From the NCBI RefSeq assembly GCF_000003815.2, contig NC_049996.1, positions 7,467,960 to 7,531,959 on the forward strand: 64,000 bases of DNA, read 5' to 3'. The notes beneath the pieces are model-generated. The model saw only the letters and a program-made list of their open reading frames with translations, made no database searches and was not told where the DNA came from. Shown here in pieces: positions 6,892 to 63,536 of the stretch. Each line of letters begins with the position of its first letter. The stretch's first letter is position 1. Source of the DNA: Branchiostoma floridae. Taxonomy: Eukaryota > Chordata > Leptocardii > Amphioxiformes > Branchiostomatidae. Position numbers and translations under genes: made by a program.

Positions 6892-8490
6892 GGTACTGTG
6901 TCAGGCAGTGGAGATGGAGGGGAGGAGGGGACCATCATCACCATCCCTGGTACTGTCATCCCTGGCAGACCAAATACTCCTCTTGCCACTCAAGAAACAC
7001 CCGTAAGTAGTCTTCATACTAACAGGAAAGTTCAGGACTGTTGGATGTACTGTATGGATCAGGAAATCTGTTTCTATCATGAACGGTGATGAGGGGGGAT
7101 ATGGACTCAGTCATGTTTAGGAATGTATTCTTCACACTGCAGCAGCGACACCTAGCTGCAGTACAAAGATGAACCAGTCAGTATTGCCCTTAGAATGTTG
7201 ACAGATTGTCACAAAAACATTGACAAGGTATAAACTCATTGGTGGTGTAGAAAGAACCTTGTCGTCCAGTGATCTACTAACCAAATGAAACTATTCGTAG
7301 ATAGTTGAATGTTGATATTAATGATAGCTGAGATGCATTTCAGCACAATGAATTAAACTTGCTGACTTTTCAACTGTAATTTTGACAATGATCCTTTTAC
7401 TGTAGAGGAGTGAAAAATTTGTGAATTTTCCTTTGTTATTGTGTGAAATACATCTAGTAGGCTTCATGCCAAATATTCATTCTCATATTTCCAGTTGATA
7501 TTTGTCCCTATTCTTCTGTGTTTGTTCTTTGTCATTATTTATGATTGACATCTTTTATCACCCTCCACAACACCATATTTAGCTTGGATGAAGAATCTAT
7601 ATCCATCCATAAAGACTGGGTGTTATTCTTAGTATTTTACAATGTTTATTTGGCTTAGTGGTCATATACTATACAGTGTCGCCATCAGAACAAAGTTGTT
7701 CTAAATGTCCAGGCCTAAGTTACTTTATGTTTACAGCAGAAAGAAAAATGATCTCTTTGAGCTTCTTATATTCACTATACTATAACTTTAAAGAATGTGT
7801 AATTGATATGTAAATGATGTTGAAATAAGGTATAAATATACCACTTTCATTTGGTTACTGATCATGAAGATTGCATCATATTGCACATGCCCACTTCAAA
7901 CTGTGATCTAGCTAATTGTAAAAAAAGATTCACATTGTTTTCTTTATTTGCCCTTTGTTTAGGTTGATGGCCCAGATGTGAACGAACCGTACCCAGACAC
8001 CAGCAACATGGAGCGCCACGATGGCGACACGACCGGTTGGCCGGAGCTGCCCGAGGGTGGTGCGAACACGGGACTGGCCGGGCTGCCTGGTTTACCCGGT
8101 GTGCCGGGACCAAAGGGAGACACCGGTCCTCAGGGTCCGCCTGGGCCAAGGGGAGAGAAGGGAGAACCGGGAGATACCACTTTGGTCGAGGGGCCGATAG
8201 GTGAGGGACTGACTTGGTTTCATGTAGCAAAGATCCAACTCTCAATGTCTTGAGAGAATATTCTAAAATTGACAGACTCCGAGCAGGATGTCAACTACCA
8301 CTAGAATCTTTGTCCTTAGAGACTTCATTGCAATTCCTACTGGTAAAAAGAGTCAATGTGCCATCCCTAACCTGCATATCATAATATCTCCCTGTATGCA
8401 GGTATACCAGGTGATCCTGGCCTTCCAGGTTTACCTGGACCTAAGGGTGACACCGGACCTGTGGGCCCACCTGGTGAGAGGGGATTGCAG
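6892..8490 (+). CDS. Collagen exons 1-3: acidic non-collagenous segment into first Gly-X-Y block
   Basis: Exon 1 encodes an acidic Gly/Thr/Pro-rich stretch with [17 protein letters not shown], of the type that links the N-terminal domain to the collagenous part in multiplexins; its SG dipeptides next to acidic residues are possible glycosaminoglycan sites. Exon 2 moves from [20 protein letters not shown] into [20 protein letters not shown]. The exon 2/3 junction splits a Gly codon (phase 1); the other junctions are phase 0. Exon 1 starts at an acceptor without Met, so upstream exons must exist. Confidence 0.88.
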
Positions 8491-38575: not shown

Positions 38576-41500
38576 CTGGCGAAGTTGAGGGGAAAATAAG
38601 TTAGAATGGGATTTTGATACGTTAAATACCTCTTCTGCCAGATGGGTAAAACAACTCTTTCCCTAAAATTGACGGGGAAAGATATACATCCATCTTTCAA
38701 TATCTATAGTCAAATTCTTTTAATGTATTGTATATAACATGGAGACAGACAGGACAGACGGACATAGGCTGCTCTACATCGCAGCAAGGCTAATCCTAAT
38801 GAATTATATAGCATCTAGCTGGCTGGGTACCTCAGTGTTACAGCATCTGGTTGTAACATTGCGTATTACAGTTAGAGTTAGCTGCAGCAGTTAATTGCTA
38901 AAGGTGATATCTCACTGCACTTGGTGCGCCGGTGCGGCACTGCGGGGTTTGTTCACTGCGGCACTGTTGGGTTATTTTTTCCCATTTTTTTTTTTATAAT
39001 TTAGATATTGCGTAATACGTAAAAGTATGACTTAGAAGACAATAAAATACACAAAATGAAAGAAAATTTGTTCTTTATCCAGGGGTGCCTAAGTAATCAT
39101 ACGATCCTTACGGAAAACATAACGGCACTGAACTTTAATCCAACGCAACTTTAATCCAACACTTTTCAGAACCCATCTGTCAGTCAAAAACTAGCTCCGG
39201 TTTGCAAATTCTTTTGAGTGCTTTTCAAGACCAGTAAGGTATACGACTTAAAACCTTGTAAGTTTGAGCTCACAAAGATCGCATGTTGCAGCGAAAAGTT
39301 AATCAATCTTCTGGTATGTTTTCATGCTGTTAATCAAGCCGTGGGAAGTGGGCAGCGATTGTAATTTCAAGCAACCCTACTCTTCGTCCTCACATTACAC
39401 AATCATCATCACAGTAAATATAGTGAAATATCAATAAACTGTCCATCCAACACAACCAACATGCCTTGAAGTATCCCTCTTTAAAGTACAGGGCCAGGCT
39501 TTGTTACACAAATTCAGTGGAAATCCGAACACGCGCCATTTTGAATCATATTTCAGCACGCCCCTTCACCCCTATTTTTGAAAGTGATCACATCCAAAGG
39601 CCAGTAGGACGGATCTCACTGGCGATACCATTACAGCCCCACATGGGGGACGTGCTGTAGGGAGTTTGTACTGTGTTTTGCGGGGATATTTTTTGGGAAC
39701 CATTCACAAACAACGTATTTTGCCACCATTTGCTGACCAAACAACGGATGAAAAGTTTGATAGAACGTCATAACTGTGTAGTGGAACAGCAGAACGGATT
39801 TGCCGCTGGTTGATGTATTTTCAGGCCGTGTTTTGATCGCTGCTATCAGCAGTTTACCGACATGCCGATTTGCCAATTTAACCTTGAGTAAGTGCCTGCC
39901 GATTGATACAAATTTGTCGTTGTAAATATGAAATCCATAGATAAACAGCCTTGTTATATTATTGTGTTGGATTAAAGTTCCACTGGGAATAGAATCCCAA
40001 AGGACTTGCTATCAGTTACACTGTCTTTGAAATGTTATTTTCTCGCGACACAACAGAAAGTGGCAGACCAATGCATGTGTAGCAATGGCCGGGGAAACAT
40101 AGTAAACAATGCACTTAACAGTTTCCAGAATGCGCTAAAGCCCGCTTGTTTATTCATGGTTCAGTTTAGAATTTGTTGGAATGTGTTGGATTAAAGTTCA
40201 GTGCCGTTACGATCCTTACGGAAAACATACGATCCATTACTAGGAAACATACGATCCTTACGGAAATCATACGATCCACTACTAGGAAACATACGATCCT
40301 TACAGAAAACATACGATCCACTACTAGAAACATACGATCCTTACGGGAAACATACGATCCACTACTAGAAACATACGATCCTTACTAATCTTTTGGACCA
40401 ACGCATGGGTCACGTCACACAAGCGACAGATTCACTATGGTGGCCTCGGGATTGCTTATTGTTCGTTACCATATCTTTGCATACGAGGCTTAACACATCC
40501 TCCTAAACACCAAAACCCCAATCTACACTGCTGACTTCTTAGCCGGCAAGAAAAGGAAGTTCTCCAGGGTCCGCCATCTTGAATTTGCCGCTGATGTCAC
40601 GTGGTCCAGCAAATTAGTAAGGATCGTATATTTCTAGTAGTGGATCGTATGTTTTCCGTAAGGATCGTATGTTTCCTAGTAGTGGATCGTATGTTTTCCG
40701 TAAGGATCGTATGTTTCCTAGTAGTGGATCGTATGTTTTCCGTAAGGATCGTATGTTTTCCGTAAGGATCGTATGATTACTTAGGCACCCCTGTTATCTT
40801 TGAAATTTGTTGAGCATCTTTCGAACTTCGCAGTGCCTCACCGGTGCCGCAAGTGCAGTGAGATACTGTTGCTGCAACTTTTGAGCGATCTTTGCGCAAC
40901 CATAGATTAACTGAATTTCATAGACAAAGAATAATTCTTGAATGATGTGTATGTTTTGGTGGACTTAATACAATTTTTGAATGATTTGTATGTTTTGGTG
41001 GACCAAATACAATACTCTGTACAGACAAAATTGACATATTGGTGTGCAGGTACTACACAAGGGTAACTGCCCATTAAAAACAGTCTGTACAAAGAGTAAA
41101 ACAGTTCTAATATTATAATATATAATAGTTATTATTGCAAAAGAGATTCAGGAAACCAGTCTCCAGTAATTACCTCTGTGAGGGTGAAGGAGGCTCATCT
41201 TCGATGAGGTTTTGTTTTTCGTTGTGCTTGTGTGTTTGCACCTATAACTGAAGATCCTTTTCATGAAATTGTATCAATCTTGGTATGAGGGATTGTCCCA
41301 GGTAATTGTTGGGGTCCAAAGAGACATGGAGATTTTGGGACTCAGACTGGATTTGTTTTTGCATTCTGCACCAATCACTGAGTGACTTGCCCCAAATCGT
41401 CCTAACCATCCACATATAACCAATTAAGTCCTTTACAATGCCTGCAAGCAAGCAGCTAGAAGCAAGATGGTGGCCACACAAAAACCCTGACAAAAAAACA

Positions 41501-44500
41501 TAATCATACTTTTCTAAAATCTTTGTTTCCTTTCTATAGATCTTGAACCTGTATCTGTATTTATACTAATCAAAGAATATTCCTTCAGCATAATGAACAA
41601 AATGTGCCATATTTGCAGTGGCAATACTGTCAATTCACAGATTTTCATGGTGACTTCATTTTTCAGTTGAATGAGAGGGAAAAAGGGATTTTTTGCTGTA
41701 TTTAAAGTTTGTGGTTGAAACAATTCTGTAGTGCAGTAGTACATGTTTACTGTGTCATGAATTTGCAGTGAATAGACAAGTGAGAAAACTATCCTGTACA
41801 TTTTAACATTTTACAGATTTACAGTATATCATAGGACTTGCCAAACCTTATAATTTCAATCACTTGGCTTTCTCTGTTGCTACTAGCTGAGCCTTGCAGG
41901 ATGTAGAGACATCATATTTCAAAAAGGATATTTACCACCAGATATGCAAAACTCAGGCAAAAGCATCGGAACATTTGACAAATCAGGTTAGATTTGTTAC
42001 CGTCTTGTTATTCTGTACTTTTTACATGAGCAGTAACACTCACACCAGGATGGTCCCCTACTCTTTTCAATAAGTTAGATGGGATCTTTGTGTTTGAGGT
42101 GTGGCTCTCCCAAAACACGGGACCTCCTACTTTACATCCTATCAGAGAGGACATCCCTTACCAAAGCATGGAACTTCTTTTTATCTGATTTGCGTGAGGT
42201 AGTACTAGTAGGTATAAAGTACTTTTCCCAATGGTACAACACTGGGGACTTCTAAGGATCTGAACCCATGAATTAGAACCTTTTGAGTCAAAAACCATAA
42301 CCACAAGACTACCTAATGCCAACTTTGATTTTACACTCTGATAGTGATTAAGTTTTTGTGTGGCCAGAACCATCTCTGTATCTAGAGGTACATGTAGCAG
42401 GAGGGATAAAACTGTTACCTCCACGATCCCTACTACGTTTCAACAGCTTTGTGTCGATACCTGGGAGGCAAGAGCCCTGTCAGTCATCATCAACTCAAAA
42501 CTTCCCCATGTGTGTCCAAACGAAATTGAGTTGGTTATAAAGCCATCATCAACTCAAAACTTCCCCATGTGTCTCCAAACGAAATTGAGTTGGTTACAAA
42601 GCCATCATCAACTAAAACTTCCCCATGTGTCTCCAAACGAAATTGAGTTGGTTATAAAGCCATCATCAACTAAAACTTCCCCATGTGTCTCCAAACGAAA
42701 TTGAGTTGGTTATAAAGCCATCATCAACTAAAACTTCCCCATGTGTCTCCAAACGAAATTGAGTTGGTTATAAAGCCATCATCAGCTAAAACTTCCCCAT
42801 GTGTCTCCAAAGGAAATTGAGTTGGTTACAACCATACTGTAAGCCTGGAATCAATCCTACACTAGTTCAATATTTTCAGGAACTGCAGCATTACAAACCA
42901 ACACCCCCTTCTAGCGAGGTGAATGACCTCAATTTGGGACACCCAGGTGGCATAGGAGCATCAACTGTTATAGCAGCATATGATAAGGCTAAGGATATGG
43001 CATTAAGAAATTCCTCAATTTCTTGTTTTGGGATTCAAATATTTCACAGAAGCAGCACCAAATGCCCCTTTGAACCACAGTGCTACACTCAAAGCTAATC
43101 AGAACTCTTGTCTATATTTTAAGCAAACATTTAAATGCAAATCATTCTCTATCAGGGCTCTAAATACTGGGTGCATGTGCACCCAGGTGCACCTAAAATT
43201 GAGCTGTGCACCCAATTATTTTCTGTGGGTGCACAGGGTGCACCCAAATATTTTCTTAGGTTTATGTATGGAAAGATATCAAGTATACTAGTATACATCA
43301 TATTCTTGACATCTGAGTGTTAGAAAGATAATAAAAAATGTCTGTCATGTTACTTGTTTAAGAATTTGATAGCTTGTAACTAAGTTTTGTTATTAAGGTT
43401 TTTTTTTACATTCTACTGAAATTTTAGTGGTGCACCCCAAAATTTTTTGGTGCACCCAATTTTTTAAGCTGGGTGCACCAGTGCACCTAATTCCCCAAAA
43501 GTGAATTTCGAGCCCTGTCTATCAATGGATGCCAAACTATTCTGTAGAGACACAATCAAAGGAGTGACGGGAGCCAGAATAGGATAGATACCAGGCTATC
43601 ATACAGCATGAGAAACAAAGAGAGATAATAAAAAATTTTGCCAGACCCCATTGTTAAAGTTTTGTTTTGTTTTTCCTTTTTTACTGGATGTTCAATTTCA
43701 TTTGGATTGAGTTTAGTGTTTTACTTTTAGTTGACTATATCTACATTTTAGTCTCATGACAACTACTTTACATTACTTGTTATCAAAATATGAATAAGTA
43801 ATGAATAAATCACTAAAATACTACACAATTTTTTGATAGTTTTTTTTTTTTATAAAATGTTTCCACTTCATTCTAAAAAGGAATTGTTATAAGGTTAGTA
43901 TTATGTACAATTTCTGTTAGATCTTGCTATGGTCACAGCAAGTCAATTTTATGGATGACATCCGTGTGCGCATTGACTTTCTACTCGTATTGACTGGTTT
44001 TGAAAAATTTTGTTTTGTACACCTTTGGCAATGGTCGACACGATAATAAAATACCTAAAATGGGAAGATAGCCTTGTGGTATCCTTGATTGTACTTCTCT
44101 AATACAGGAATAAAAGACTTGTTTTGTTGATTCAGTTTTTGTTATAATGTTTACGGTCTCTGTTTTGAAAAAAAATAGACATCTTTCTTTTTTGTGCTCT
44201 AGCATTAGAGTTGGAGTTTGCAGATGATGCCATCCATAAAATTTACTTACTATGGCCTAATTCACACAAGATCAAACTGTTATACTTTTGTTTTAGATAG
44301 TAACAGCCTGAAAGTGACAATGACTAAAGAATGGCTGATCACAATGAACATACAACTGAGAGAGCTAATCTTGCAACTGACCAATCAACAACTTGTATTT
44401 GATTAGCCACACAGCTCAAGCTGTTCCTGATTGGTCACTCATAACACCCAATCAGAGCCAAGATTGCCTACCTCCTTTCTCCATCTTGTGAATGGCTGAG

Positions 44501-47500
44501 AGTGCTGATTGGCCGAGAATGTTGTTGGAGCAGACCTCATCCTTCAGCATGCTGGGGTGGGCACCAGTCTCCAGAACTCGCTTGGCAGCATTCTGAAGGA
44601 AGTAAAAAATTTTACGTTTCAACACACAAATCAGAGTAGTTGTTTTCAGCAGTTCTGTGAGTAGCGACTATACAACTGAAGTATGAAATATTTTGTCCTA
44701 GACCTATATGGAAGTATATATGTTAGGGTAGGGATTGTGATTTATTTTGCTGATAGAAATTTGCTGATAAAGCTTGCTGATTTTGCTTTTCCCTCTGTCA
44801 GCTTTTCAGGACAGAAATTGAAAAAGGCAAAACCCCCAAAAAGATAATTTTCGTCCTGACCATTCAATCAAAGCTTCTTTGTTTTGCAAACCATTTTGTT
44901 TTCTTGAAATAACTTAAGTACAATACCAAGTGACATTGAACCACGTCATGTGCCAACATTTTCCCCATCTCTACCTGAATGGTTTCTGCAGCGATCCTGA
45001 GTGACTCCTGTCTGGATAGTCCCATCTTCACCCCACCTGTGGCCAGGGCATCGATGGACAGGAACACCTGTACAGGAAGGACAAGACATCAAAGTTCTTG
45101 TGAATATCTAATAATGCCTAGTACATGCTACAGCACTATAACACCTGATGCTAAACAAGTCCCAAGCCACCCAAATTGAGGTCAATGAGGACATTACTTT
45201 CAGAAAGGGGTTATTGGGCAGAAATGATGCAGTACTTGAAAATACTGCTAGGGTGTCCAAAGTTGACATGTTTTTTTAGGGTCTCAACAACTACCCACAT
45301 ACCAAAGCTAATAAAAATCCATCTAAAGGATCATAGTTCTAGGTGTATACATAATTAAAAACAGCACCTCCATCGGAGGTGAACCCAGGCTTTTAGCCAG
45401 GCATGTGTCATGTCGTCACTTACCGCGACTCACCAAGGAATTTGGACTCCCTATAATAAAATCCTAGCTAAAAGCCTGGGTGAACCTCCTTCCCAGAGAT
45501 ATCTATTGCATCAAATAATTGATTACTTATCAGATACAGCAGCTGACAAATTTGTAACACTTCTTACATATGCAGGTCCGCTCCCACTCAAGCCAGTCAC
45601 GGCGTCCATGTAATCTTCTTTCCCCTCGAAACACCAGCCGACATTGGACAAAAGAACCTCAACTGTCTCGCCGTCATGCTTCGTGGCGTGCTCCCCACGG
45701 GCGTACACCGTCGCCCCCTCCCCCACCACCAGGGGGGTGTTGGGCATCATCCGGATCACTCTTGTTTCAGGGGGTAAGGACTGTAGGTGTTGGGGAAAGG
45801 TGCACTGTTGTTAGATGTACATTGCCATACTACATTTATAGTTTGAAATAGACTAGGAAGCATCCAGTGGCAAGAAAAGCGAACAAGAACTTGACAATCA
45901 AGGAAGTGCACCTAACATTGGGGCATGTGCACATTCATGCATCCGAAATTGGAGATGTGTACGTAATTTAATAGCCTAAGTATCATCCTACTATGGTACT
46001 TAGGCTATTAATTTATAACATTTGGAGCACTTAGTGTACCCAAGTATTTGTATAGGGTTACATGTATAACCGTTATACATGTATGTACTGCCATACGTAT
46101 ACTATGGATATTATTGTACACCAGTATACAGCATATCAATCACATAGGTGTTAGAAGAGAAGAAAAAGAATATATAGAAATAGAAGACAATATATAGAAC
46201 AAACACAGAACAAAACATATTTCTTACCTGTTCAACTGATTTTATGGTGACGCCAGCCATGGGAGTCACAAAGAGATGTCGATTGGTGACAAACGGCGCG
46301 ATCTCCTCCAGCACGTTTTTCACCACATTTGCTTTGATCGCCAGGAACACGACGTCCGACTGCGACACTAGCGCTGTGTTACTGTGGGTCACTTGTATGC
46401 CAAGCTCCTGTGTAAGACAACAAATGAGAAAATAATAGTAAACAAGAAATCAAAGATCTACTACCTCTGTAATATATTTAGTGCTTTTGTCAATGCCTTT
46501 AATAGTCCTAACCTCTTCTACTTTGGGGTTACTCCCTCAAATAGCCCTGCAGTGGGCCAACGTTGGGTAAGGGCAGCCCTCCTAACCATTACAGATGTTA
46601 CTTAGTGAACCTCCCCTACCCCAGCAATCTCCCTCCCATAAGGGATTATCCATGGACTATACAACAATACTGTAACTTCAGACCCCTCCTGAATTTTCTA
46701 TTAAGCATTACCAGGCCTCTTAAATATACCATCAAGCACTGCTGCATTACCACAATCCACTATTGTAACGTAAGGTTACCAGTTTACGTGCAGGACCAGT
46801 TTACGATCACTTTGGGCACTGGTGCAGACTTCGAGGTGAATTGTGAAAAAGAAAATTCTCTTCAGTAGGCAAGAAGTACGTCTATAGGATCTATGTGATT
46901 GTATCTTATTTGTGATATATGCTTGCATCCAGGAAAGCAGCCGACTAAACGTTTGAAAAGCCTGACAACAATTTAAATTGACGATGTATGATTGTTGAAC
47001 ACTGTTACAGATGGCCCGGTTTTGATCGTAATTCTCAACCGCTAACTTCGTCTCCTCTTTCTAAATCCTACAAATTCTATATCAATTGCAACATCGTCTG
47101 AAACCAAACCTATTGTTAGATCCTTTTTATTACTTACCAGGCACTAAATTTTTCACAACCATTTTTACCTTGATGTTTCTTAACTCTGCTCTTCCGACCA
47201 GGTTGTCAGGGGCAGAGGCAAAGATGTTTTCAGCAGGCACAGCTCCTTTAATAAAAAACAACAAAAGTGTCAATCTATGTAAAATTAGCACTTCTACTGG
47301 ATCCATCATTTTTAACGGAACAATATTTGAATGTTGTACTTGTAAAAGGATTCATAATTTGTTTACTGTTTTCACAAATAAAACAGTTAACAACTGATGA
47401 ACACATCAAATCCACAGATGGTATGACATGTAAAAGTAGAAATATCAGCAAATTGTTATATAAATTTCTTAATGTCATAACCAATATTGTCATAACCAAT

Positions 47501-52180: not shown

Positions 52181-52646
52181 CTAGTTGTATCCATATAGGT
52201 CATTGTCGACAAACGCTTGTGGGATAGAGGGTTCCCCGTTGTCAGCATTTGCGTCATCCCCCTGGTCATATCCATACAGATCGTTGTCTACAAAGTGCTG
52301 GTCTTCGGGAGGAGGGGGGTCTTCATAATACGGAAAGTCACTTTGTTGATCCTTCTTCTTTTTCATTGGCTGAGCGTACAGCTGACGTAGTTCCTCCTCC
52401 CTGTCCGTGACGTCATCACCGGTCTCCAACAGTCCGACTTCTGACTCCTCGTAGTGCGCATGCTCGTTCTGTTCAGTCTCAGGCGCCTTCTTTGGGATAA
52501 AGGTGACGTTCTCGGAGGTGAGGGTGACGTCAGGAGTGACGTCAGCAGTCGGGATGACGTAAGGTGTTGGGGAGGAGATGACGACCGTGCTGTCCAAGTG
52601 GATTCTGGGATAGTTTGGTGCGTATCGCTTGGTCGACTTGGCTTTT
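52181..52646 (-). CDS. Receptor C exon 7: cytoplasmic tail and stop
   Basis: About 154 codons to TAG at 52183-52181. Acidic, Pro- and Thr-rich, with a KKKK cluster, PYYEDPPPP, and the decapeptide FVDNDLYGY(D/N) twice, 27 residues apart, the second copy at the very C terminus. Repeated tyrosine motifs suggest a docking function; no kinase or known adaptor domain is present. Confidence 0.88.
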
Positions 52647-55600
52647 CTGTAAGAAATATATGAGGTACTATGTCAAATCCTTCATTAATTTTCCACACAA
52701 TTTTGTTTAATTTTTCATTGATAGAGATAGTGAACATTCAGTATTGCTTCCTAGGCCTGCTATGCATTAGTTGTATCATACGTACCTCTTAGCTTACCTG
52801 TCTTTAAAACTGACCACTGAAATCACAAAGAGCATTGAAGATTTCTGCCATAAGATTTCTGCCTAAACAATGAACTTTTTTGATATGACAGCCATTCACT
52901 GCCAGCAGACTAGACCCTGCTGTAGTGTCATATACAAATGTGTGGCCCAAGGGCTACTGAAATGGAGATTGGCACCACCCCTTTGCACCTGCTACAGACG
53001 CACGGGTAACTTAAATTTAACTTTTAACCCTTACCTTCTCTTCATGACGAAATACACAGCCACACACAGCACAGCGAGGAGGATTAGCACTGCAAGCACG
53101 GACACAATGACAATCACTACTGTCGGAGTGGTGCCTGTGGCAGGGAAAAAGAGAATCTTAGGAGGTGGTTGAGAAAAGATATAAGTTTGCTTTACAGCTA
53201 CAGCAAGGACGTCTTATATAACATCCTTGGCTACAGTAATTGGTTGATATAAACAAAAGACTACCGTTGACATTCTAGTGTCTACCGCTTTGAAGCTCTA
53301 CATGCTATATATAGAAAAGCTCAGAAATGAAAGGCATTGTCACCTCGCGCTTGGTCGCCGGCAGCGGCTGTGCCCATACTGACCGTCGTCATTTCACCTT
53401 CAGTAGAACCTGGAGAAGAAAGTAGAAGAACAACTTTGCACTGACTTCGAAAAACACAATCTTTAAACATACAGCGATGTATGAAACTTTAGTATCTGTC
53501 ACTGATTAGAGAAATGATCACTAGGTTGGCTCACTTGGTAACGTTGCTATTTTATAAACTAGAGGAGAATCTACTGAAGTTTAAAGAAGATAGCACTAGA
53601 TGATGATTGTTGACTCACTTGTACAGTATATCCCCGTTATGTTGAAGACCTTGTCTTGTAGACACTCCACCACTGTCTCTATCCCGTCCGTACACCTTAT
53701 TGTTACCTCCTGCCCGACGGCGAAGTTTCCTCCATGTGAAGGAGATATCCGTGCGATACCTCCTGAACTAGCAATACCTCCACAGTGGTCTACGGCTGAA
53801 TAAACAGAACAGTACATTGAATATCAATGTCATCAAACTGACACCATTTGTTTGTTTATTTCGCACATATAGAAACAATAACAATAAGTATAGAAAAGTA
53901 AATAAAAGTGCCGGAGGAGGGGAGAAGCCTGAATGGCTTGTACAGTACCTTCCTACACTTAACTAAACGAATACTAATCTTCATACAAATGTAGAAATTT
54001 GTGTGCATTATTCCTGTTAAGTATCATTGAATGGTTAAGCCACATCGTTTGACAATGAAACGTTTCCTACCTTCATACTGGACAGCAAATTTTCCATTTA
54101 CACGCTTGTCGTCTGATAGAAAGTTGACCGTAACTTCATTGGTCCAAGCTGTGTCCATGTCCGGTCCGAGTGTCCTGGATTGCCCTGACGTGTCCGTAAT
54201 GACCAGTCTGTCCCCGGGTGCGACGTCCCAAAAGTTGAAGTAGAACTTGATAACCTTGTCTGGGTCAAACCTGATCTCCCAGGTACAGTTGTCCGAGTGT
54301 GGGTATGTCCCAGGATACTTTGGCGAATAGATAGCTCCGGTCGTTTCCCTGTATCCACAAACACCAACCCATGCTGTTGTACAAACGAAAGAAAATAAAA
54401 CATGGCAATTTAGCTCAATATATCCATTAAACGTTCCTATATGTAACGTTAGTGTGCTCAATCAACATCATGGTATTGAACTGTAGCTAAATGCCAGGTA
54501 TTACCGCATTCCTTCAGGAAAATTAAGTACATGACTTCTCTTGGATCAAATCATCAAATAGTCTACAAAGGCAAGGTTTTATAGATACAAGTACTAATGA
54601 GTACGTGTCTATGTTCAAGGTAGAGGATAATTAGAATCCGTACTGCTTTTGCCCATTATATAAAGCATGTTGGCTGTCACATGAGTTATTTTATCATCGG
54701 TCACTTTGTGATTTTTATTGCGACCAGGGCAACTTGTGACCTAGGCACCTGGTGTCACCCCTACGTAACCTGAATCACTCCACCGTTCAACTCACTTGCC
54801 AGCATGCCAGCAAGATTTACAGTTTAACTAACGAAGATGTCTTTACTTACTAGGCTCGCATGAGCTCTATAGACTATACAAACGAGCATCGGGTATTGGA
54901 GTGCAACAGTAGCACTGTAACCTGTTCACTAGGACATGTATTTGCAAAGGAGACGATCCACTTACTTTGGTATACGTCAGCTCTCCCCAGCCGATGTAGC
55001 CCGGGTCTGAAAATAGCAAGGTTATTTAGACTCTACCTGAATAGAAGAGCGAAGGATAGGTACAATTATAGCGTTAGATGCATGTAGACAGAGTGGAAAC
55101 TTGTGCTAATTCATATGCTGTTGTATTAAAATTAAAATTCCTTACCTGCACAACTTATTTGTACGTACGGAGCGTTTTTCCACTCTCGTGTTTCAGGGTC
55201 CCAAATCTTGAACGATTCTTCAATGTTATTTGCATAGACACTTGAGTCTTCCACGTACAGTCCGTTTTCTCCAGGCGTTGGGTACGGACCCACGAACCAG
55301 GTAGGGGTGTTTTGGGGATAGGGGTTGGATGCGTAGTAAATACTCATACGGTCATCTGTTGTGCTGGTGTATACAGGTCTATTCACTCCCGTAAACTGTT
55401 CTGTGATGGTATATGTCGTCATCAGGTGTGTCTGTAGCCTCGTGGAACCGGAAATACGGATCTTCTGACATCCTGCAAACAAAGGAACACACCTGTTGGA
55501 ATGGACATGTCTCCTGTTCTCTCTCAAACCACATTTCCTCCAGTATTAAGGTGGTATCTCACTGCACTTGCGGCACCGGTGCGGCACTGCGGGGTTTGAA

Positions 55601-57049
55601 AGATTACTCAACGAATTTCAGAGATAAAGAACGAGTTTTCTTACGTTTTATGTATATTGTTGTCTTCTAAGTCATACTTTTACGTATTGCGCAATATCTT
55701 AGTTATAAAAAAATCGGCGAAAATAACACAACAGTGCCGCAGTGAACGAACACGTACCGCAATGTCGCACGGGTGCCCCAAGTGCAGTGAGATACCACCT
55801 AAAGTTTTAAGGTGTCCCGCCCGAACAAGAAATATTCATCTTACAGCCTTTAATGTTAAGACAAAGAGGCATTTATTTAGGCTTAATCTTTCTCTCACAT
55901 TGACCGAAAATATTTTAAATGTAGTTGGTTCAATCAGTCTTTTCTGAACTTGCCCGACCTTTGGATTTAAAACGTCCTGTTCTAAAGATTACCCAGGCTT
56001 AGGTCACGCTAACACTGTTTGTAACTTCCTGATTTCATGGTTGAAAAACAAGCTATATATAGACGGATGGTTGGTTCTTCCGCAAGGGAAATACACACAG
56101 AGATTTGTCTAGATTTCTGTAGACACTGTGACAACTTTCAATTTCTTACAATGCACCACAATTATACATTTGTATGTTTTAGTTTAAAGACATAGAGTAC
56201 TACTATTCATCCCCATATCTGTGTCGTAGTAAGATGTTTGAAATATAACGTTAAAAGTCGATACTGACTATTGCCCCACCCCCGAAGTTTTGACAGCCCA
56301 GTCTTTGCCAACGACAAATGTATGTTAAGTAAATACAACCTTTCGATTTCCTTTGCTTCTTAACTAAATGTATATATTATAAAATATTTCAACAACAAAA
56401 TGATAAGGAAGAATTAACAATACAACATCATTACGTAACGCAACAATTTTGGTGGAAAAGATACATGTAGTAACAAAAGTCTATAGAAAAATATAAAAGA
56501 CTTCCATTACATAAAAACTACCAGCATAAGACAACAATATAATTACAAGACAAGACAATTTCAATGGAAACTATACAGTAGTAGCAAAAGACTGTAGCAG
56601 AATTACAAAACTCTGTTAACATAAAAATGTCTTATTATTTTCTTCATGGGCACAGCTATACGTACAGAGTTCTACGTAGTATGTGAATCTATTGACAAAC
56701 ATGATAAACAACACCACAAATCTTACGTCCACGAGGACAATACAATAAGATCATACGCGCTACTAAGCAAAACAATCGTGCTTCGGGGCATTTTTCCAAG
56801 TATACAGGCCATACAGGTGGTAATGTATTGAAGTTTTCCTTATCCCGGTATCGGACATTATCTTATTTTTGAACACTTATTTTACTTCCTCCTTTAAGTA
56901 TAAATCTCGATCTCTGGCAAACCTTTTCCTCAAAAGTGAAAGTACGACACTGTGTACTTACCCGGGTTTTGTGCGTTCGTTGGAAGACTTGTGAAAATGA
57001 CAAAACACAAGGCGCTGAACGTCGCTGTACGGACGACCCTAGGTTCCAT
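52181..57049 (-). CDS. CUB-sushi transmembrane receptor with unnamed N-terminal module (receptor C)
   Basis: Single-pass type I membrane protein, 508 residues, ligand unknown. Exons in transcript order: 57049-56962, 55472-55146, 54373-54071, 53795-53619, 53409-53344, 53134-53035, 52646-52181; total 1,527 nt in frame with GT/AG borders. Order: signal peptide (about 1-27), module of about 108 residues (30-138), CUB (140-239), sushi-like (240-298), Thr/Ala-rich stalk (299-320), transmembrane helix (about 325-347), tail of about 155 residues. All extracellular junctions are phase 1, the exon-shuffling class. The gene 1.35 kb upstream on the same strand shares the CUB-sushi-membrane part and its phases, so the two are probably tandem paralogues. 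Confidence 0.85.
53035..53134 (-). CDS. Receptor C exon 6: transmembrane helix
   Basis: TTPTVVIVIVSVLAVLILLA then VLCVAVYFVMKRR. A clear hydrophobic helix with a basic stop-transfer end. Phase 1 in, phase 2 out, as in the neighbouring gene. Confidence 0.87.
53344..53409 (-). CDS. Receptor C exon 5: stalk
   Basis: 22 residues, SSTEGEMTTVSMGTAAAGDQ then AR, Ser/Thr/Ala-rich, a probable O-glycosylated stalk. The neighbouring receptor lacks such an exon. Confidence 0.72.
53619..53795 (-). CDS. Receptor C exon 4: sushi-like (CCP) module
   Basis: 177 nt, phase 1-1. Four cysteines in CCP spacing: DHCGG, VTIRC, VVEC, GIYC, with GGNFAVGQEVTIRC as the recognisable core. The usual Trp before the last Cys is absent. 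Same length as the sushi exon of the neighbouring receptor. Confidence 0.82.
53860..53975 (-). repeat. Possible retroposon 3'-end fragment
   Basis: TTTGTTTATTTCGCACATAT, an A-rich stretch, then GTGCCGGAGGAGGGGAGAAG and CCTGAATGGCTTGTACAGTA. The A/T-rich start with a conserved downstream block looks like the 3' end of a LINE on the minus strand; low certainty. It lies in receptor C intron 3. Confidence 0.3.
54071..54373 (-). CDS. Receptor C exon 3: CUB domain
   Basis: 303-nt phase 1-1 exon. VCGYRETTGAIYSPKYPGTY, NCTWEIRFD, FWDVAPGDRLVITD and GKFAVQYEG are CUB landmarks. Only the first disulfide pair is present; the third and fourth CUB cysteines are missing. NCT is a likely N-glycosylation site. 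Confidence 0.92.
54966..55006 (-). other. Cryptic or regulated exon in receptor C intron 2
   Basis: Excellent acceptor (CTTGCTATTTTCAG) and donor (AAA then GTAAGT) enclose 41 nt that read PGYIGWGELTYTK in the entering frame. Inclusion would shift the CUB exon out of frame. Using a weaker donor 4 nt on would make it 45 nt and in frame. Not placed in the main model. Confidence 0.35.
55146..55472 (-). CDS. Receptor C exon 2: unnamed cysteine-bounded module
   Basis: One phase 1-1 exon of 327 nt. It starts with GCQKIRISGSTRLQTHLMTT and ends with WKNAPYVQISCAG, so a single Cys lies at each edge, probably bonded. Marks inside: GVNRPVYTS, MSIYYASNP, TPTWFVGPYP, GLYVEDSS and ESFKIWDPETREW. The (PVY...YYY...WxVG...W.VWD...W) layout resembles a module I associate with uncharacterised invertebrate deuterostome receptors, but I know no family name for it. 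Confidence 0.8.
55550..55799 (+). mobile_element. Intact 250-bp MITE (copy B), empty site for the nested insertion
   Basis: GGTGGTATCTCACTGCACTT at the left, its reverse complement at the right, and TAA on both sides (55547-55549, 55800-55802). The reverse complement aligns with copy A at 38903-40870, and its GAGATAAAGAACG stretch shows the site without the hAT5-like insertion. It lies in the first intron of receptor C. The TAA duplication and GG-starting termini suggest PIF/Harbinger. Confidence 0.88.
56962..57049 (-). CDS. Receptor C exon 1: signal peptide
   Basis: ATG at 57049-57047, MEPRVVRTATFSALCFVIFT then SLPTNAQNPG: a basic start, a hydrophobic core and a likely cleavage near TNAQ. 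Phase 1 at GTAAGT. Confidence 0.8.
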
Positions 57050-57549: not shown

Positions 57550-58403
57550 CTGTTGTATTTTCAGTATCAATTTTAGGACTTTCCACCTAATTGCTAGTTT
57601 AGTGCGAATTGACTCCGCTTTAAACTGGCTGAGAAGTACAATCAGGATGAAAGCTTTCGTAGCCCAACAAACCCATTTTCACACTAAAGAACAGTGTGCA
57701 ATAATATCATGGTTTCGGAGGGAATAAAGCTTGTCTGTTATATCTACATGTATACATTCATAGGTTCGACTGTAACATTACTTAGGCACCGGATGTTTGA
57801 ATAAATTGAGGCTATATTACAAAGGTCAATTTCAACACTGCCAATTAAATGCATACAAAGAAGGTACTCGTCGTGAAATTCGTTGTAATTATGCTATATG
57901 TATGAAATAAAACTCAAAAGAAATGCAATGACATACAAGAATGTGACCAATATTGTTCTTCTGTTCAAATTAAAACTGTTCAAACATCTATATGATTATG
58001 TGAAACAAAATATCCATGATAGAATTGCATGTAGAAACGAATGCTTTTAAGTTAATGCTAAACTCAGGACTAGAGAGTGCTAAACAAATTTCAAATTGAA
58101 AAGTGTACATCATTAAACAAGACACGCAAGTCATGAAGTATAATAAGAATCCTGAAGTGACCTAGTTCCGGTGGGAAATATGCAGTCGACGGCGTCTATA
58201 AATATGTCGTTTACATCACTAATTCCAATAGTTCACTTCCGGTTCTGTCTTGTGTAGGTGTTGCAGGTGTATCCTGTGTAGGTCTGACGTAAGTGTTGTA
58301 ATTGCCTCCGTCCATGCGCACTTTATTAGTTCTTTTTTTAACAGTTGTTGGCTAGTTTTCGACGACACATTCTCAACATTTTCACCTATCTTTCCAAATG
58401 TGT
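57550..58403. other. Intergenic stretch between the receptor genes
   Basis: AT-rich; nothing recognised. Must contain the 3' UTR of the upstream receptor and probably the promoter of the downstream one. Confidence 0.4.
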
Positions 58404-58701
58404 TCAAAATAGTTCTAAATATTCGTGAGTGTTCTCGTAGTCTGGGTCGTCTATATAGGTGCGGGTTGTTGTCAGGCTCATGTATTCACTGTTACACATG
58501 GTCCTGGGGTCCAGTGCCTGGTAGTCCGAGTCAGACCGGGTTCCAGAGACTCCGAGTGGACGAGGAAATGTTGGCGGGGCTTGTGGACTCCGGGCCGGGA
58601 GACGGGAGTCCTGTGTGCAGACCACCTCGTACTCGTCATTGGAGGTTCCTGGGTCCACCATGTCGTACTCATGACTGGAGGCTCCTAGCTCTTCCGCGGC
58701 C
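58404..58701 (-). CDS. Receptor D exon 7: tyrosine-rich tail and stop
   Basis: 98 codons and TGA. Tyrosines at about residues 454 (EYDMV), 466 (EYEVV), 502 (DYQAL), 515 (EYMSL), 524 (TYIDD), 530 (DYENT) and 536 (EYLEL). The first and third pairs form YxxV-x8-YxxV and DxDYxxL-x9-YxxL, both ITAM-like. YENT is a Grb2-type YxN site. RSPQAPPTFPRP is a possible SH3 ligand. The tail is in one exon. Confidence 0.9.
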
Positions 58702-61700
58702 CTGTCATACGAAATATCAGTTAAACTGGTATTCCACTGCAGAAGGGAGTGTTATTTTCCAATAGATAATGTAGCAATAAATATATATTCAGCCGACCTT
58801 TGGCGGAATTCCACTTGTGGCGAATTACGCAACGTGTGTTTGTAAAACAATATGACACTCACTTAGCCCATGCAGACCCTACGCATGCATTCCTTATACG
58901 TGTGGACACTTCCGATATTTTCTGCATAAATGAGGGACGCTAAGTACACTAAGAAGGTCAATTGTTCACAAGATATCAAAGAATACATGACAAGACGTGT
59001 TTTTCTTAGCGCCCCTGAATTTAGTTTTGTAACCTAACTTACGCTAGGCGATGTCAGACACATTGTATTCAGCTATAGGCTGAGATTGATTGATGTAATT
59101 AGAAGGTACTTGGGGAGTTTTGTAGAAGACTGAATGCTTTTTGATGCGCGTGGGGCTAATGGGTACTTAATCGTTTAATGTAAAGTAGTATGCATTTGTT
59201 ACTTCCTACAATTAATATAATTCGGAAAGTAACACTCCCTTCTGGAGTGAAATGCCCGCGGTATAAGAGCGCGGTTATAGTCGTTTTATGTACGAGTACC
59301 AAGTGTCAGTTCATCCCAGAGTTTCCCCATATTCGATGGATATAGCTAGGTGTATACCACAATACATGTCGCTGCCCATGCGCACTTAGAATCGTGAACC
59401 TACTTATTAACTTGTCTCTAAGGAAGGTTCAATAGACTCGTTTTTCTAGAAACGAGGGGACTTGGCTTACTAAACTAGAAGATTACACATATTGCACGGG
59501 ACACTAACCTCCTACGTTTGATGATGCAGAAAACAGCGACCTCAACTGACACAAGAAGAACGGCCGCCATGATGGAAACAGGGACTGCCCACACCACTAC
59601 CTCCTGTTCATCGCCTACCGTAGCCTCTGTAGAAGCAAATGGACAATGATATCAATGATGAGCATGGCGCGTTTCTTATAGCATAGTTTAAACATTAGTA
59701 GTCTGTTATGACAATGCATGAGTCGTTTCGCGGATTGGACAGCGCATGTGGGGCGAGCCTGATCTAGATGCATCGTGAGCAATATATCAAGGTCTAATTT
59801 GTTTATAGTTTTTGTTTCGATTGTGCTTAATACATGTCCAGGCGTGTCTTGTTTATGTATCAATGGCCAATGCCTATGACGTACCTGTTAACCCCAATGT
59901 ATAGGAACATTTTGAACTGTCTCGTTATTTCGCGGACTTACCTATACAGTAAGGTGTTGGCATGTTGAAGGTTCCGTTCTTCTGACACCGTACCGTAACA
60001 TTTTGGCCGTTTTTACACGTGATGCTCGCCTGTTGGCCAATAGCGACGTTTCCTCCATGGTTAGGGAAAACGGAAGTGACGTCATCGATCACTTCTACTG
60101 GTCCGCAGAGGCCAACAGCTAGAAAAGATGTGGGTATGGCGTAAATCTAGTATATGTGTTTGCTTTACTTCTCCTCCTGTGACCAAGGAGTATTTGAAAG
60201 AATTCCAGAAATTCCTGTACAATTCTGGGAATTCTTGCCAATCGGACGCATACTATACTGTTAGGCTCGCCCATGAGACGTCGCCAAAAAGTCTAAACCA
60301 ACCCACCTTCATAACGCAGGATAAATCCGTCCGTTTGCTGCGCTCTTCGCGGCCCAGCTCTGAACTGCAGGCTGACATTACTGCTGACACTGATGTATTC
60401 CGTCATTGACGTACCGTTAAGAACAGTAACAACAGTCCGTGAAGATCTCTCCTCTATAATGGTTAAGCTGTCCTCTGCAGAGATGTCTAAGAGTTCTAAA
60501 CTGACCCTTATGACGTTTTCAGGTGCTACTTGTATGTTCCATACACAGTTCTGATCTAGTGGGTACGGTCCGGGGAAATCCGGGGAGTAGATGGTCCCTT
60601 CATTTGCCTTCAGATCGCCACCACAGGCTCCTATAGACGCTGTGAATAGAAGAAAATAAAGACATTTCATTCAACGCCAATATATGATTATTAGTTCACA
60701 GGTCAGCCCGTAGTTGGTCGACATCTCCAAGCAGATTTACCGGTGGCATGGGACAGTATCAAAAGGGCCAAATCAGTATCCATTTATGCCACCGGTTCAT
60801 CTGTTTGTAGATTGATATCGTCCGCGATCTTTTGATCTGTTTGTAGAATAAATCCTGTGCTCGGTTCCGCATTACGTAGTACTGCATTGTACTGAATTGT
60901 TTTAACTGGCGCAAGTTATCACCTCTCATACACATCTACATCAGTATATAATCTATGAAAGAAAAGGCATCGAACAGCAGAGAAAATACCAATGGAAAGC
61001 ACAATTGAAAGGAAGGGAAATGGTTGATTAACTCTTGATGCACAAGTACTTAATTTCTTAAATAAATTTTCTGGACTATCGCGTGACTTATGAATCGGCA
61101 CTATGGACAGATCCAATTGTGAGAAACCATTCAGCACTTTTAAACTGTTAAGAATGAAATGTCTTACTTTCAAACACTTTCATTCCTTTACTATCTCGCC
61201 AGCCTCCACAGAACCGGGACGCTTCTCCCTTACATGGTGCAGTACACTCGGTGATCGGCAGTCGGCGCCAGGCAGCATCTTGTACTTGGTTCCCGCAATA
61301 ACATCTAAATCTGTCGGCGACTCCAGCGTACCGACAACTTTGGAGTCGACAGTATGATATACACTCTTGGACCGTCAAGTATATCGAATAAGGCTCAGAG
61401 GGCCTAGAAGTACATGTACCAGACAGCAGGGGGTTGTTGACTGGGTCGTCCTGATAGCAGCCTAGCGACATCGGAACTGGGGTAGATATCATTACATTCA
61501 GTGTTATACAAGGCCATGCAACTTTAACGAGCTCAAGAACTAAAAACAAGTTTCAGATGAAATCAGCTTGCCTTTTCTCAAACGATCATTATATTCAATC
61601 CTTCCCTAATTATGTCTATGCCTTCCTGTAGAAATTTGGACCTCGGTTGACCCTCTCGTGACGCGCCAGATTAGGCGCCCGGCCAGCTTTCCCATCCTGC

Positions 61701-63536
61701 ATGTAAGAATTAGTGCCCACTCCCTACAAATCGAAAAGGGTAGACATCACAACACACCAGCCAGTGAGAGACTGTGTCCAACATGCCATGATAATATTGA
61801 AAATGAATCCCACTTTATAATGGATTGTCCAACTTATGATAGAGAGAGACAAAAAAATGTTACAGTCTATTAAATGCAAATCTGATACAATGTTACCACC
61901 TACCAAGACAGAAATGTTTAATATGTTACTATCATGTCCTGCTGATATATCTGCCTATGTCGGTCAATTTATATATAACTCATTTAAAAAACGAGACAAT
62001 ATTATACTATCATGAACCAGCACATAGGGCTAGCCTGATTGTAAATATTATATACCATGTGTAAAATAGATAAGTCTCTTAGATTTTTAGATACTAGTAA
62101 CTCATGTAGTTAAACTGTTCTGTATGTATTGTATGTACAAGTTGCCAAACACTGTATCCTCTACAGTTGTCGTGCAATAAAGTTCTTCTTGTCTCTTCCG
62201 AAGTTCCGACTCATTTGCTGCTAAAGTGGACCCGGATTGGCGAGAAAAAGAGAAAAAAAACACAGCAAATGTAAGACAAACAAAGCTAAAACAATTCCTC
62301 CGCTTTCACCGAGGCACTCACCATTTACACACTTGTGCTCCACTCTAAGAGACTTGCCGATATCCCGCTCGGCATAGTCACACGGTTGTAATGTGCAGTT
62401 TCCCCTGGCACCGCCACAGCGTGCGTAGACTATACGTATGGGGTTATTTCTGCTTATCCAATCACACCCCGTGCAGTCTCCCTCTCTTTCTGTACACCCT
62501 GACAACTTACACTCTCGGTCCCGTTCGTACGTAGTACGGACTATCAGGAGTTTCTGAAAGTCCGGTCGGGGACACCGTATGGTTTTCCTCTCGCCGTTGC
62601 AGATTTTCGTCCTCTCTGGCGGAGAAAAAAAGGAGGGATCACACTGTTAATTAACACCCCAACAAACCATAATGGGCTTGCTTCCTTTGAGCGTCGCCAA
62701 AAATGAAATAATTACGTAAATTATTAATCAAGTACTGCATTAGTAACGTTGAGTCTCTTAGGCGAACGGAAAGCCACACGCGCTTTCATAATGTGATCGT
62801 TGTTGTAATATGTCAACCCCTTCTCCCCATCTGTATTTGCTACTAACCAAATGGAGAAAGGATATCCCCCTTTGTTCTCGAAAAGTTGTGCTACCCGGAA
62901 GTGGGGGAGGTGCGCATGCATGTAGTCTGGTGACTATGCTTTTTTAATCAACTTATTTCATCTTGTCATAACACAGTGAACAAGGCAAAATACATCAATT
63001 ATCATATCGTTTGTCCAACTTGAAATGATATAGGATCCTTATAATACTACAAATAGATGATACGACTGAGAAAAGTACATACAAGTTGACAAGTACACAC
63101 AAAAACGAACAACTAATTGTTACGATAGAGTGCAGTTAGACTTGGGTACAACGAAGGCTTGAGGAAGTCCGCCAAGATTATATATATATTGAGGAGCGGA
63201 TCTAGTAGAAATGAGGTTGCTATATTGGTGAGTGCTTTTGACACCTTTCTTAAAAAGGCGAAATGCTTTCCAATGAATTTGAAATATTTGCTTAGTATTA
63301 CAAGCACTTGGATTCTTTAGACGGTACGTTATACTAAACAGTTGCCAAGTTGATGTCGATGAATAAGTTTAAACGGATGATTACGCATCGTAGAAAAATC
63401 ATGTAGAGCCCACAGATGACTAACACCATAAGTAGAACGTACCTGCGCCCTTGAAGGGAACCAGGAAGCCCCAAGCCGTGAGGAACAGCACACACACGGC
63501 CAGCCGCCCTCCCGTCCTCCGTACCTGTCCCGACAT
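58404..63536 (-). CDS. Lectin-WSC-CUB-sushi transmembrane receptor with ITAM-like tail (receptor D)
   Basis: Type I membrane protein of 540 residues (561 with the longer exon 3). Exons in transcript order: 63536-63443, 62615-62322, 61476-61168 (or from 61539), 60639-60307, 60118-59942, 59626-59509, 58701-58404. Order: signal peptide, rhamnose-binding-lectin-like domain (about 34-129), WSC (131-232), CUB (233-343), sushi-like (344-402), transmembrane helix (about 412-434), tail with seven tyrosines (436-540). WSC next to CUB recalls Kremen, but there is no kringle. Extracellular junctions are all phase 1. The tail suggests signalling through SH2 proteins, possibly Syk-type; ligand and function are unknown. 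Confidence 0.87.
59509..59626 (-). CDS. Receptor D exon 6: transmembrane helix
   Basis: EATVGDEQEVVVWAVPVSIM then AAVLLVSVEVAVFCIIKRRR. The helix carries one acidic residue (Glu in LVSVEVAV), unusual in a single-pass segment and typical of receptors that pair with partner chains. Phase 2 out, as in receptor C. Confidence 0.87.
59942..60118 (-). CDS. Receptor D exon 5: sushi-like (CCP) module
   Basis: 177 nt, phase 1-1. VGLCGPVEV, HGGNVAIGQQASITC, NVTVRC and TPYC. HGGN(F/V)A(V/I)GQ is shared with the sushi exon of receptor C (53619-53795), the clearest sign of common ancestry. Confidence 0.85.
60307..60639 (-). CDS. Receptor D exon 4: CUB domain
   Basis: 333 nt, phase 1-1. GACGGDLKANEGTIYSPDFP, NCVWNIQVAPENVIRVSLE, LLDISAEDSLTIIEE and DGFILRYEG. 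Like the CUB of the neighbouring receptor, it has only the first cysteine pair. Several NxS/T sites (LNGTS, SSNVS). Confidence 0.92.
61168..61476 (-). CDS. Receptor D exon 3: WSC domain
   Basis: MSLGCYQDDPVNNPLLSGTC, TVQECISYC, RYAGVADRFRCYCGNQVQDA and ASRFCGGW: ten cysteines in WSC order, including the RCYCGN and CGG landmarks. WSC domains are thought to bind carbohydrate. Two acceptors fit the phase: CTACCCCAG at 61477 (chosen, as the domain starts just after it) and TGTTTTTAG at 61540 (better pyrimidine tract, adds 21 residues). Confidence 0.88.
61640..62195 (+). mobile_element. 5'-truncated LINE retrotransposon 3' end, antisense in receptor D intron 2
   Basis: The plus-strand frame at 61658-61873 reads LHVRISAHSLQIEKGRHHNT, then ERLCPTCHDNIENESHFIMD and CPTYDRERQ. 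This RISAH-LxIExGR...CxxC...H-F...CP pattern is the cysteine/histidine segment after the reverse transcriptase of many animal LINEs. A run of A at 61852 breaks the frame, and C-terminal-like sequence continues in the next frame to about 62015. AATAAA at 62178 lies near the end. Confidence 0.8.
62322..62615 (-). CDS. Receptor D exon 2: rhamnose-binding-lectin (SUEL)-like domain
   Basis: 294-nt phase 1-1 exon. KICNGERKTIRCPRPDFQKL, LIVRTTYERDREC, RIVYARCGGARGNCTLQP and SLRVEHKCVN follow the order of the SUEL/L-rhamnose-binding lectin fold (Cys-x-Gly start, IxC strand, YxR and Cys, then C-G-x-x-x-C and VxYxC end). The canonical YGR and DPC(x)GTxKYL motifs are diverged, so sugar binding is uncertain. 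Extra cysteines (GDCTGCDW) occur. Confidence 0.75.
63443..63536 (-). CDS. Receptor D exon 1: signal peptide
   Basis: ATG at 63536-63534: MSGQVRRTGGRLAVCVLFLT then AWGFLVPFKGA. Basic N terminus plus a hydrophobic core. Ends in phase 1 at GTACG. Confidence 0.8.

Follow-up and report, generated by a model that had tools for sequence, protein, structure and literature searches.

A seven-tyrosine tail with a recurrent paired YxxL unit on a WSC-CUB membrane protein of amphioxus, a candidate Syk-coupled receptor

The window analysed here is a stretch of 64,000 nucleotides of the amphioxus Branchiostoma floridae (G000:C18:7467960-7531959, from a genome of 513 Mb in 431 contigs), whose minus strand carries a gene, termed gene B in the following, that appears to encode a cell-surface receptor with a tyrosine-rich signalling tail. 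Seven exons between positions 63536 and 58404 were spliced in frame to a product of 540 residues with GT-AG splice sites wherever expected, the introns being in phase 1 except for the last, which is in phase 2. The predicted type I membrane protein consists of a signal peptide, a SUEL-lectin-like domain, a WSC, a CUB and a sushi-like domain, a membrane helix and a tail with seven tyrosines. A first-pass annotation of this DNA had proposed a self-contained receptor with a single-exon tail; the spliced model supports this layout, and the motifs named there, the transmembrane exon (59626-59509) and the tail exon (58701-58404) were all recovered. In the lettering used below, A is the tandem neighbour of gene B, and C, D, E and F are related genes of the same genome. 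The features of gene B are the following:

63443..63536, minus strand: exon 1, start codon and signal peptide MSGQVRRTGGRLAVCVLFLTAWGFLVPFKGA, in frame, with a GT donor in phase 1
62322..62615, minus strand: exon 2, diverged SUEL (rhamnose/galactose-binding) lectin-like domain, named on the basis of the paralogues
61168..61476, minus strand: exon 3, WSC domain (Pfam PF01822, 2.4e-13)
60307..60639, minus strand: exon 4, CUB domain (Pfam PF00431, 1.1e-13)
59942..60118, minus strand: exon 5, sushi-like domain (PF00084, 7.6e-4 when searched alone)
59509..59626, minus strand: exon 6, juxtamembrane region and transmembrane helix, a hydrophobic span followed by KRRR
58404..58701, minus strand: exon 7, cytoplasmic tail of 98 residues with seven tyrosines, the stop codon ending at 58404
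58620..58667, minus strand: pair 1, YDMV-x8-YEVV, with V at +3; its first tyrosine is lost in D
58473..58523, minus strand: pair 2, YQAL-x9-YMSL, the recurrent unit resembling an immunoreceptor tyrosine-based activation motif (ITAM)
58428..58439, minus strand: YENT, a YxN site; YxN is kept in the tails of B, C and D
58410..58421, minus strand: YLEL, the C-terminal YxxL; YLEL or YVEL in all three homologous tails
58322..58327, minus strand: AATAAA, candidate polyadenylation signal, 77 bases past the stop

Ectodomain and tail appear to belong together, because the GT-AG model is in frame and the entire order from the SUEL domain through WSC, CUB, sushi and helix to the tail is repeated in paralogue C (C18:18.51 Mb, L005, with the tail at L003/L005), which lies 11 Mb from gene B and has one extra unassigned domain at its front. 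The junction at 58701, where the first-pass annotation had joined the tail to the transmembrane exon, is in phase 2 and is borne out at the sequence level, because the same phase-2 donor and the acceptor context AG|GGC[CT]GCG are found in the homologues C (L005) and D (L004); the tail junction of gene F (C18:11.87 Mb, L027) is in phase 2 as well. At the other end of the gene, exon 1 has a counterpart in paralogue E (C18:7.68 Mb, L013), whose signal exon (L014) is 90% identical. The position of the candidate polyadenylation signal fits the model, and AATAAA is not enriched across the window (80 observed, about 84 expected).

The two outer domains of the ectodomain are weakly defined in gene B itself. 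Exon 2 gave no meaningful Pfam match (no PF02140) and no PDB match. It is about 54-59% identical to the equivalent domain of C and 61% identical to that of E, which match PF02140 (SUEL_Lectin) at 9.1e-5 and 8.1e-7, respectively, when searched alone, both under the Pfam cut-off. A distant gene on contig C14 has a SUEL match above the cut-off (36.4 bits, 6.8e-9) in the layout SUEL-WSC-CUB, followed by a sushi-like exon that was recognised by eye without a Pfam score. Since E, C and the C14 gene all match SUEL_Lectin, the lectin label seems right for the family, while it is doubtful for the diverged copy in gene B. Exon 5 alone reaches 20.3 bits against PF00084, just under the cut-off of 20.7, which paralogue E exceeds at 22.0 bits. 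The terms lectin and sushi in the first-pass annotation are thus sustained via the paralogues, and weak in gene B. The CUB-based genome search scored 150 of 334 candidates, so that the size of the family is a lower bound.

The inner part of the ectodomain is more familiar. WSC and CUB of gene B align contiguously to Kremen1 (1.1e-31), and as in Kremen1/2 no other domain stands between WSC and CUB of this type I membrane protein. The published Kremen layout is kringle-WSC-CUB (PMC5014086, PMC3927609), with no sushi domain named; the front of gene B is SUEL-like instead. Among the Pfam matches of gene B up to E 1 there is no kringle, and exon 2 was rejected as a kringle, having no match itself and paralogues that match SUEL. 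Without an N-terminal kringle, gene B is not a Kremen proper. A separate gene on contig C4 of the same genome has the order kringle-kringle-WSC-CUB-sushi, and because this gene bears kringles on a WSC-CUB-sushi core, kringle and SUEL domain appear to substitute for each other in front of a common WSC-CUB core. The locus around it (L022/L060, C4:13.50-13.52 Mb) holds four clustered WSC matches, at least one of them belonging to a kringle-kringle-WSC-CUB-sushi gene, and these are candidate Kremen relatives. A function of gene B as a Wnt/Dickkopf co-receptor of the Kremen type, with the tail being incidental, would agree with the alignment to Kremen1, but is very improbable: Dickkopf binds kringle and WSC of Kremen1 (PMC5014086), the former missing in gene B, and the kringle-bearing gene exists separately on C4. 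Furthermore, the Kremen tail of 60-75 residues is dispensable for Wnt antagonism, which is retained when membrane span and tail are replaced by a glycosylphosphatidylinositol anchor (PMC5014086). The tail of gene B, in contrast, is constrained in the comparison with C, where the ratio of nonsynonymous to synonymous divergence (dN/dS) is 0.25 for the tail, 0.24 for CUB, 0.52 for the lectin domain, 0.51 for WSC and 1.25 for the transmembrane exon. This constraint therefore points to a use other than that of the Kremen tail.

The tail itself was examined for paired tyrosine motifs. Two disjoint YxxL/I/V pairs with a gap of 6-12 residues arose in a fraction of 0.0001 of 20,000 shuffles of the gene B tail; if only L or I is allowed at +3, one pair remains in the tail (fraction 0.016, 20,000 shuffles). 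The spacers of pair 1 and pair 2 resemble each other at a shuffle fraction of 0.00065, which is consistent with an internal duplication, and the eight spacer comparisons gave fractions between 0.0002 and 0.034, uncorrected. Taken with the genome scan and its reversed control described below, the tail shuffles and the spacer comparison led us to reject the idea that the paired motifs arose by chance. No pair was counted in the tails of A and E, and a PDB search with the gene B tail returned chance matches only (best E 1.5). Pair 2 conforms to YxxL/I-x(6-12)-YxxL, the ITAM consensus as printed in PMC6433993, where FcγRIIA is given as YMTL-x12-YLTL. Its gap of nine does exceed the classical 6-8 residues, as had been pointed out earlier, but is no obstacle, since it lies inside this range; PMC6189171, which counts 11 for the gap of FcγRIIA, reports a functional ITAM in moesin whose spacer has 10 residues. 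The first-pass view of pair 1 as ITAM-like is weakened by its V at +3 and by the missing first tyrosine in homologue D.

Genome searches with the tails of B and C retrieved a full homologous tail only in B, C and D. The tail of B is 73% identical to that of C and 62% identical to that of D, and five tyrosines are invariant, namely one in pair 1 (the second), the two in pair 2 and those of YxN and the last YxxL; the tyrosine of TYIDD is confined to B among these three. YxN is a Grb2-type SH2 site, and its presence in three of three homologous tails agrees with what had been proposed for it. Overall, the tail probably serves SH2 docking, as the first-pass annotation had it. The retained sites would also suit a scaffold of the LAT/Gab kind, whose SH2 sites would each act alone, YxN binding Grb2 and YEVV/YDMV binding other partners, with no tandem-SH2 pairing: although D has only half of pair 1, all three homologous tails retain the second tyrosine of that pair, YxN and the last YxxL. 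We regard such a scaffold as unlikely, since sites acting singly would not be expected to recur as two YxxL motifs with almost constant spacing in genes that otherwise differ.

The surroundings of the motif tyrosines bear on what might bind there. We evaluated 22 tyrosines from 11 paired units, taking at most two units from each tail (pair 1 of D and extra pairs in L035, L037, L038 and L039 were omitted). The -2 position is S in 8/22 and I/V/L in 0/22, so that the conserved I/V/L/S of a classical immunoreceptor tyrosine-based inhibitory motif (ITIM) is missing and this class was rejected; an acidic residue at -1 was found in 14/22. Inhibition nevertheless is the chief rival of an activating role: after phosphorylation by a Src-family kinase, the YxxL/V sites would recruit SHP-2 or SHIP and damp other receptors. 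In favour of this reading, both tyrosines of pair 2 in gene B have S at -2, and the amphioxus receptor BbLcLRR binds SHP1/2 and SHIP1 and inhibits via DDYATV and HDYSEV, which are as loose as pair 1 (PMC8211107). Against it, the -2 position is not kept among the units, and the near-fixed x9 within the pair suits a compact tandem SH2. SHP-2 sites are usually spaced further apart. We consider an inhibitory receptor rather doubtful on balance. YxxL also fits the AP-2 consensus, and an endocytic scavenger or lectin receptor with YxxL as AP-2 sorting signals would go well with a lectin/CUB ectodomain, which might suit uptake. Such a receptor would leave the acidic -1 residues, the paired spacing, the recurrent P and T in the gap and the YxN site unexplained, for none of which we know a role in sorting, and it is accordingly an improbable alternative.

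The paired unit recurs in the genome. A scan for YQ[ADE]L[ND]PxT yielded 11 places in 513 Mb and none in the reversed control. Seven of the 11 places lie in open frames of 104-188 residues, gene B being one of these loci, and all seven frames carry a second YxxL (at x9 in six, at x11 in C) and an M after the T, neither of which was part of the search pattern; the other four places lie in frames of 13-88 residues without a pair. The seven loci are not independent and reduce to four groups, B, C and D being homologues of one another and L038 and L039 lying close together with tails that resemble each other; gene F, found separately, is a fifth. The tail of F contains two units, YQEL-x9-YTRL and YQVL-x9-YTSL. 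Of two weak matches to this tail, L030 seems to be a chance match and L031 is a tail with the unit. A hydrophobic span was found immediately upstream of the tails L043, L044 and L045, and by eye in L031.

The outer parts of the unit-bearing genes, as read from colinear open frames, differ. B and C have SUEL-WSC-CUB-sushi; in gene F, WSC and CUB are present and no SUEL exon was found nearby. L043 carries LDLa (1.2e-7) and a mucin-like repeat, L044 a mucin-like repeat, and L031/L046 a mucin-like part with a SEA-like piece (Pfam 0.02, under the cut-off) and an EGF-like piece without a Pfam score. The outer part of gene D (L002/L004) comprises two fibrinogen-like domains, EGF-like, Ig and FN3 domains (2.6e-63 for one fibrinogen domain, 1.1e-11 for Ig_3, 3.9e-21 for fn3):

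L007 4087-4896 and L004 9-8735, plus strand: gene D, colinear run ending in the same transmembrane-tail cassette

As an observation in its own right, L031, L045 and L046 (C18:2.17-2.19 Mb) are adjacent and encode mucin-like membrane proteins in which YQALNP-x-TM-x4-YTxL is accompanied by another YxxL at x12.

How tails may be distributed over ectodomains is illustrated by the neighbour of gene B:

52181..57049, minus strand: gene A, neighbouring tandem paralogue with signal peptide, unassigned domain, CUB, sushi-like domain, transmembrane helix and YxxP-type tail

Gene A is 32% identical to gene B across CUB-sushi-helix, and its tail is of the YxxP/NDLYGY type. Its sushi-like exon alone gave no Pfam Sushi match, and the model omits a possible exon near 54990 that fitted no phase. 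The unassigned N-terminal domain of A also precedes SUEL in C and E; no copy of it was found in gene B. The transmembrane exons of B, C and D are mutually alike (scores 88-123) and unlike those of A and E (19-38), which score 64 with each other. E shares 89% of CUB with B (synonymous divergence of CUB 0.12) but bears a YxxP-type tail. Because E keeps a B-like CUB and yet groups with A in helix and tail, these two exons behave like a cassette that moves as a whole from one ectodomain to another. YxxP is a Crk/Nck-type output. Tails of this type are found on A, E and the C14 gene, with matches of 5e-8 for A-E and 4e-5 for E-C14 and no direct match for A-C14; the YxxP-type tail is likelier to be ancestral, because it is also borne by the C14 gene, the most distant of the genes of this architecture that were seen. 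A swappable signalling tail that is reused on several different receptors is therefore plausible from these comparisons. More tentatively, YQxL-[DNI]P-x-T-x5-Y-x-x-L with its near-fixed gap of nine might be a portable code, a Syk docking unit on many different receptors that was spread partly by swaps of the two-exon helix-tail cassette, so that one and the same lectin-WSC-CUB-sushi ectodomain would have an ITAM-like output (YxxL-x9-YxxL) in some genes and a YxxP output in others; we hold this broader proposal to be possible rather than probable.

The glutamate in the membrane helix, which had been noted earlier, is present in gene B (codon 59543-59541) but is private to it, being found in one of the seven related transmembrane exons compared; the homologous exons of C and D are without it. 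A conserved acidic residue is thus missing, and because of this single occurrence a partner-chain role like that in CD3, FcRγ or DAP12 is unsupported and was rejected.

A Syk-family kinase with tandem SH2 domains, as an ITAM receptor would need, is present in the same genome at C15:6.24 Mb. When its two SH2 domains were joined from open frames, the best match was SYK (6e-47), followed by ZAP-70, and the kinase domain matches SYK at 4e-90, one higher-ranked EGFR entry without a qualifying stretch having been set aside. The gene is read as Syk and not as Shark, because no ankyrin repeats were seen by eye between the SH2 domains. The loci L053-L054 (C15:6.243-6.253 Mb) hold the SH2 pair and the kinase exons, with a long N run further downstream. 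A 2023 review states that, apart from Shark/HTK16, a single Syk-like gene is present in invertebrates (PMC10253181).

With gene structure, homology, the conserved and recurrent unit and the presence of Syk taken from the sequence, we infer ligand, phosphorylation, Syk binding and outcome as follows. The outer part of the gene B receptor is a Kremen-like WSC-CUB core with a sushi-like domain and a lectin-like front that replaces the kringle. A ligand would cluster the receptor, and a Src-family kinase would phosphorylate the clustered tail. Once phosphorylated on both tyrosines, YQAL-x9-YMSL would engage the tandem SH2 of the Syk encoded in this genome, in the way the long-spaced ITAM of FcγRIIA engages Syk. 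Grb2 would join at the YxN site, and phagocytic or activating signalling would result. We favour gene B as such a Src/Syk-coupled activating recognition receptor with a long-spaced ITAM in the style of FcγRIIA and assign this reading a probability of roughly 0.4.

Several results speak against the activating receptor. A strict classical ITAM (L/I, gap 6-8) is found in none of the six tails A-F, and pair 1, being YxxV, falls outside the ITAM consensus altogether. The gap of pair 2 differs between B (9) and C (11). The tail is less constrained in the other comparisons, with dN/dS of 0.77 for B-D and 0.39 for C-D, and the tyrosine and +3 columns are invariant in 9/13 cases versus 40/81 for the rest of the tail, a difference that is not significant (Fisher p 0.15), so that a special conservation of the tyrosine columns was rejected. 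Finally, BbLcLRR, the one experimentally tested amphioxus WSC receptor found in the literature consulted, inhibits signalling although its motifs depart from textbook ITIMs (PMC8211107).

Comparison with known systems places gene B among several partial counterparts. FcγRIIA/IIC are antibody receptors with an Ig ectodomain. As compared by motif alone, they likewise carry a long-spaced ITAM in their own tail, YMTL-NPRAPTDDDKNI-YLTL, whose gap starts with N-P-R versus D-P-R in gene B, the gap being 12 in FcγRIIA (11 by PMC6189171) versus 9. Draper and its mouse relative Megf10, of the CED-1 family, are an invertebrate and a vertebrate example of single-chain engulfment receptors with ITAM tails recruiting Shark or Syk (PMC8092387, PMC9388098); they combine an EMI-EGF ectodomain with NPxY, whereas gene B has WSC-CUB and a tail without NPxY. 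A hemocyte membrane protein of Halocynthia roretzi, compared by description only, is self-contained, has two ITAMs, stems from an invertebrate chordate and is linked to phagocytosis and aggregation (review PMC5465252). With Draper/Shark and this ascidian protein, self-contained ITAM receptors outside vertebrates are already known. BbLcLRR shares with gene B the WSC domain and a tyrosine tail, which is phosphorylated by Lck, and differs by its leucine-rich-repeat ectodomain and ITIM-like, inhibitory character (PMC8211107). The first-pass statement that no family of this layout is described therefore overlooks Kremen with its WSC-CUB core, Draper/Megf10, the two-ITAM ascidian protein and the amphioxus LRR-WSC receptor. 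For the full lectin-WSC-CUB-sushi layout with a tyrosine tail, no description was found in the open-licence PubMed Central literature among the matches listed.

These observations address the origin of paired-tyrosine immune signalling before adaptive immunity, with one genome combining Syk and several membrane proteins that bear recurrent paired YxxL motifs at a spacing outside textbook ITAMs. If the portable code holds, it would parallel the shared-module logic of vertebrate immune receptors, without adaptor chains, in an invertebrate chordate. The natural gene pairs with a common ectodomain but a different signalling tail represent ready-made experiments on tail function.

Some further features were recorded. 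Fragments resembling the C-terminus of a long interspersed nuclear element (LINE) reverse transcriptase were recognised by eye in an intron of gene B (61610-61873) and in an intron of gene D (L004, about 8043-8261). Elsewhere in the window, short tandem repeats at 40166-40390 and 42460-42850 read as repetitive peptides within open frames, and exon frames resembling pyrroline-5-carboxylate reductase were seen by eye at 45523-46449 and 47130-47351 on the minus strand.

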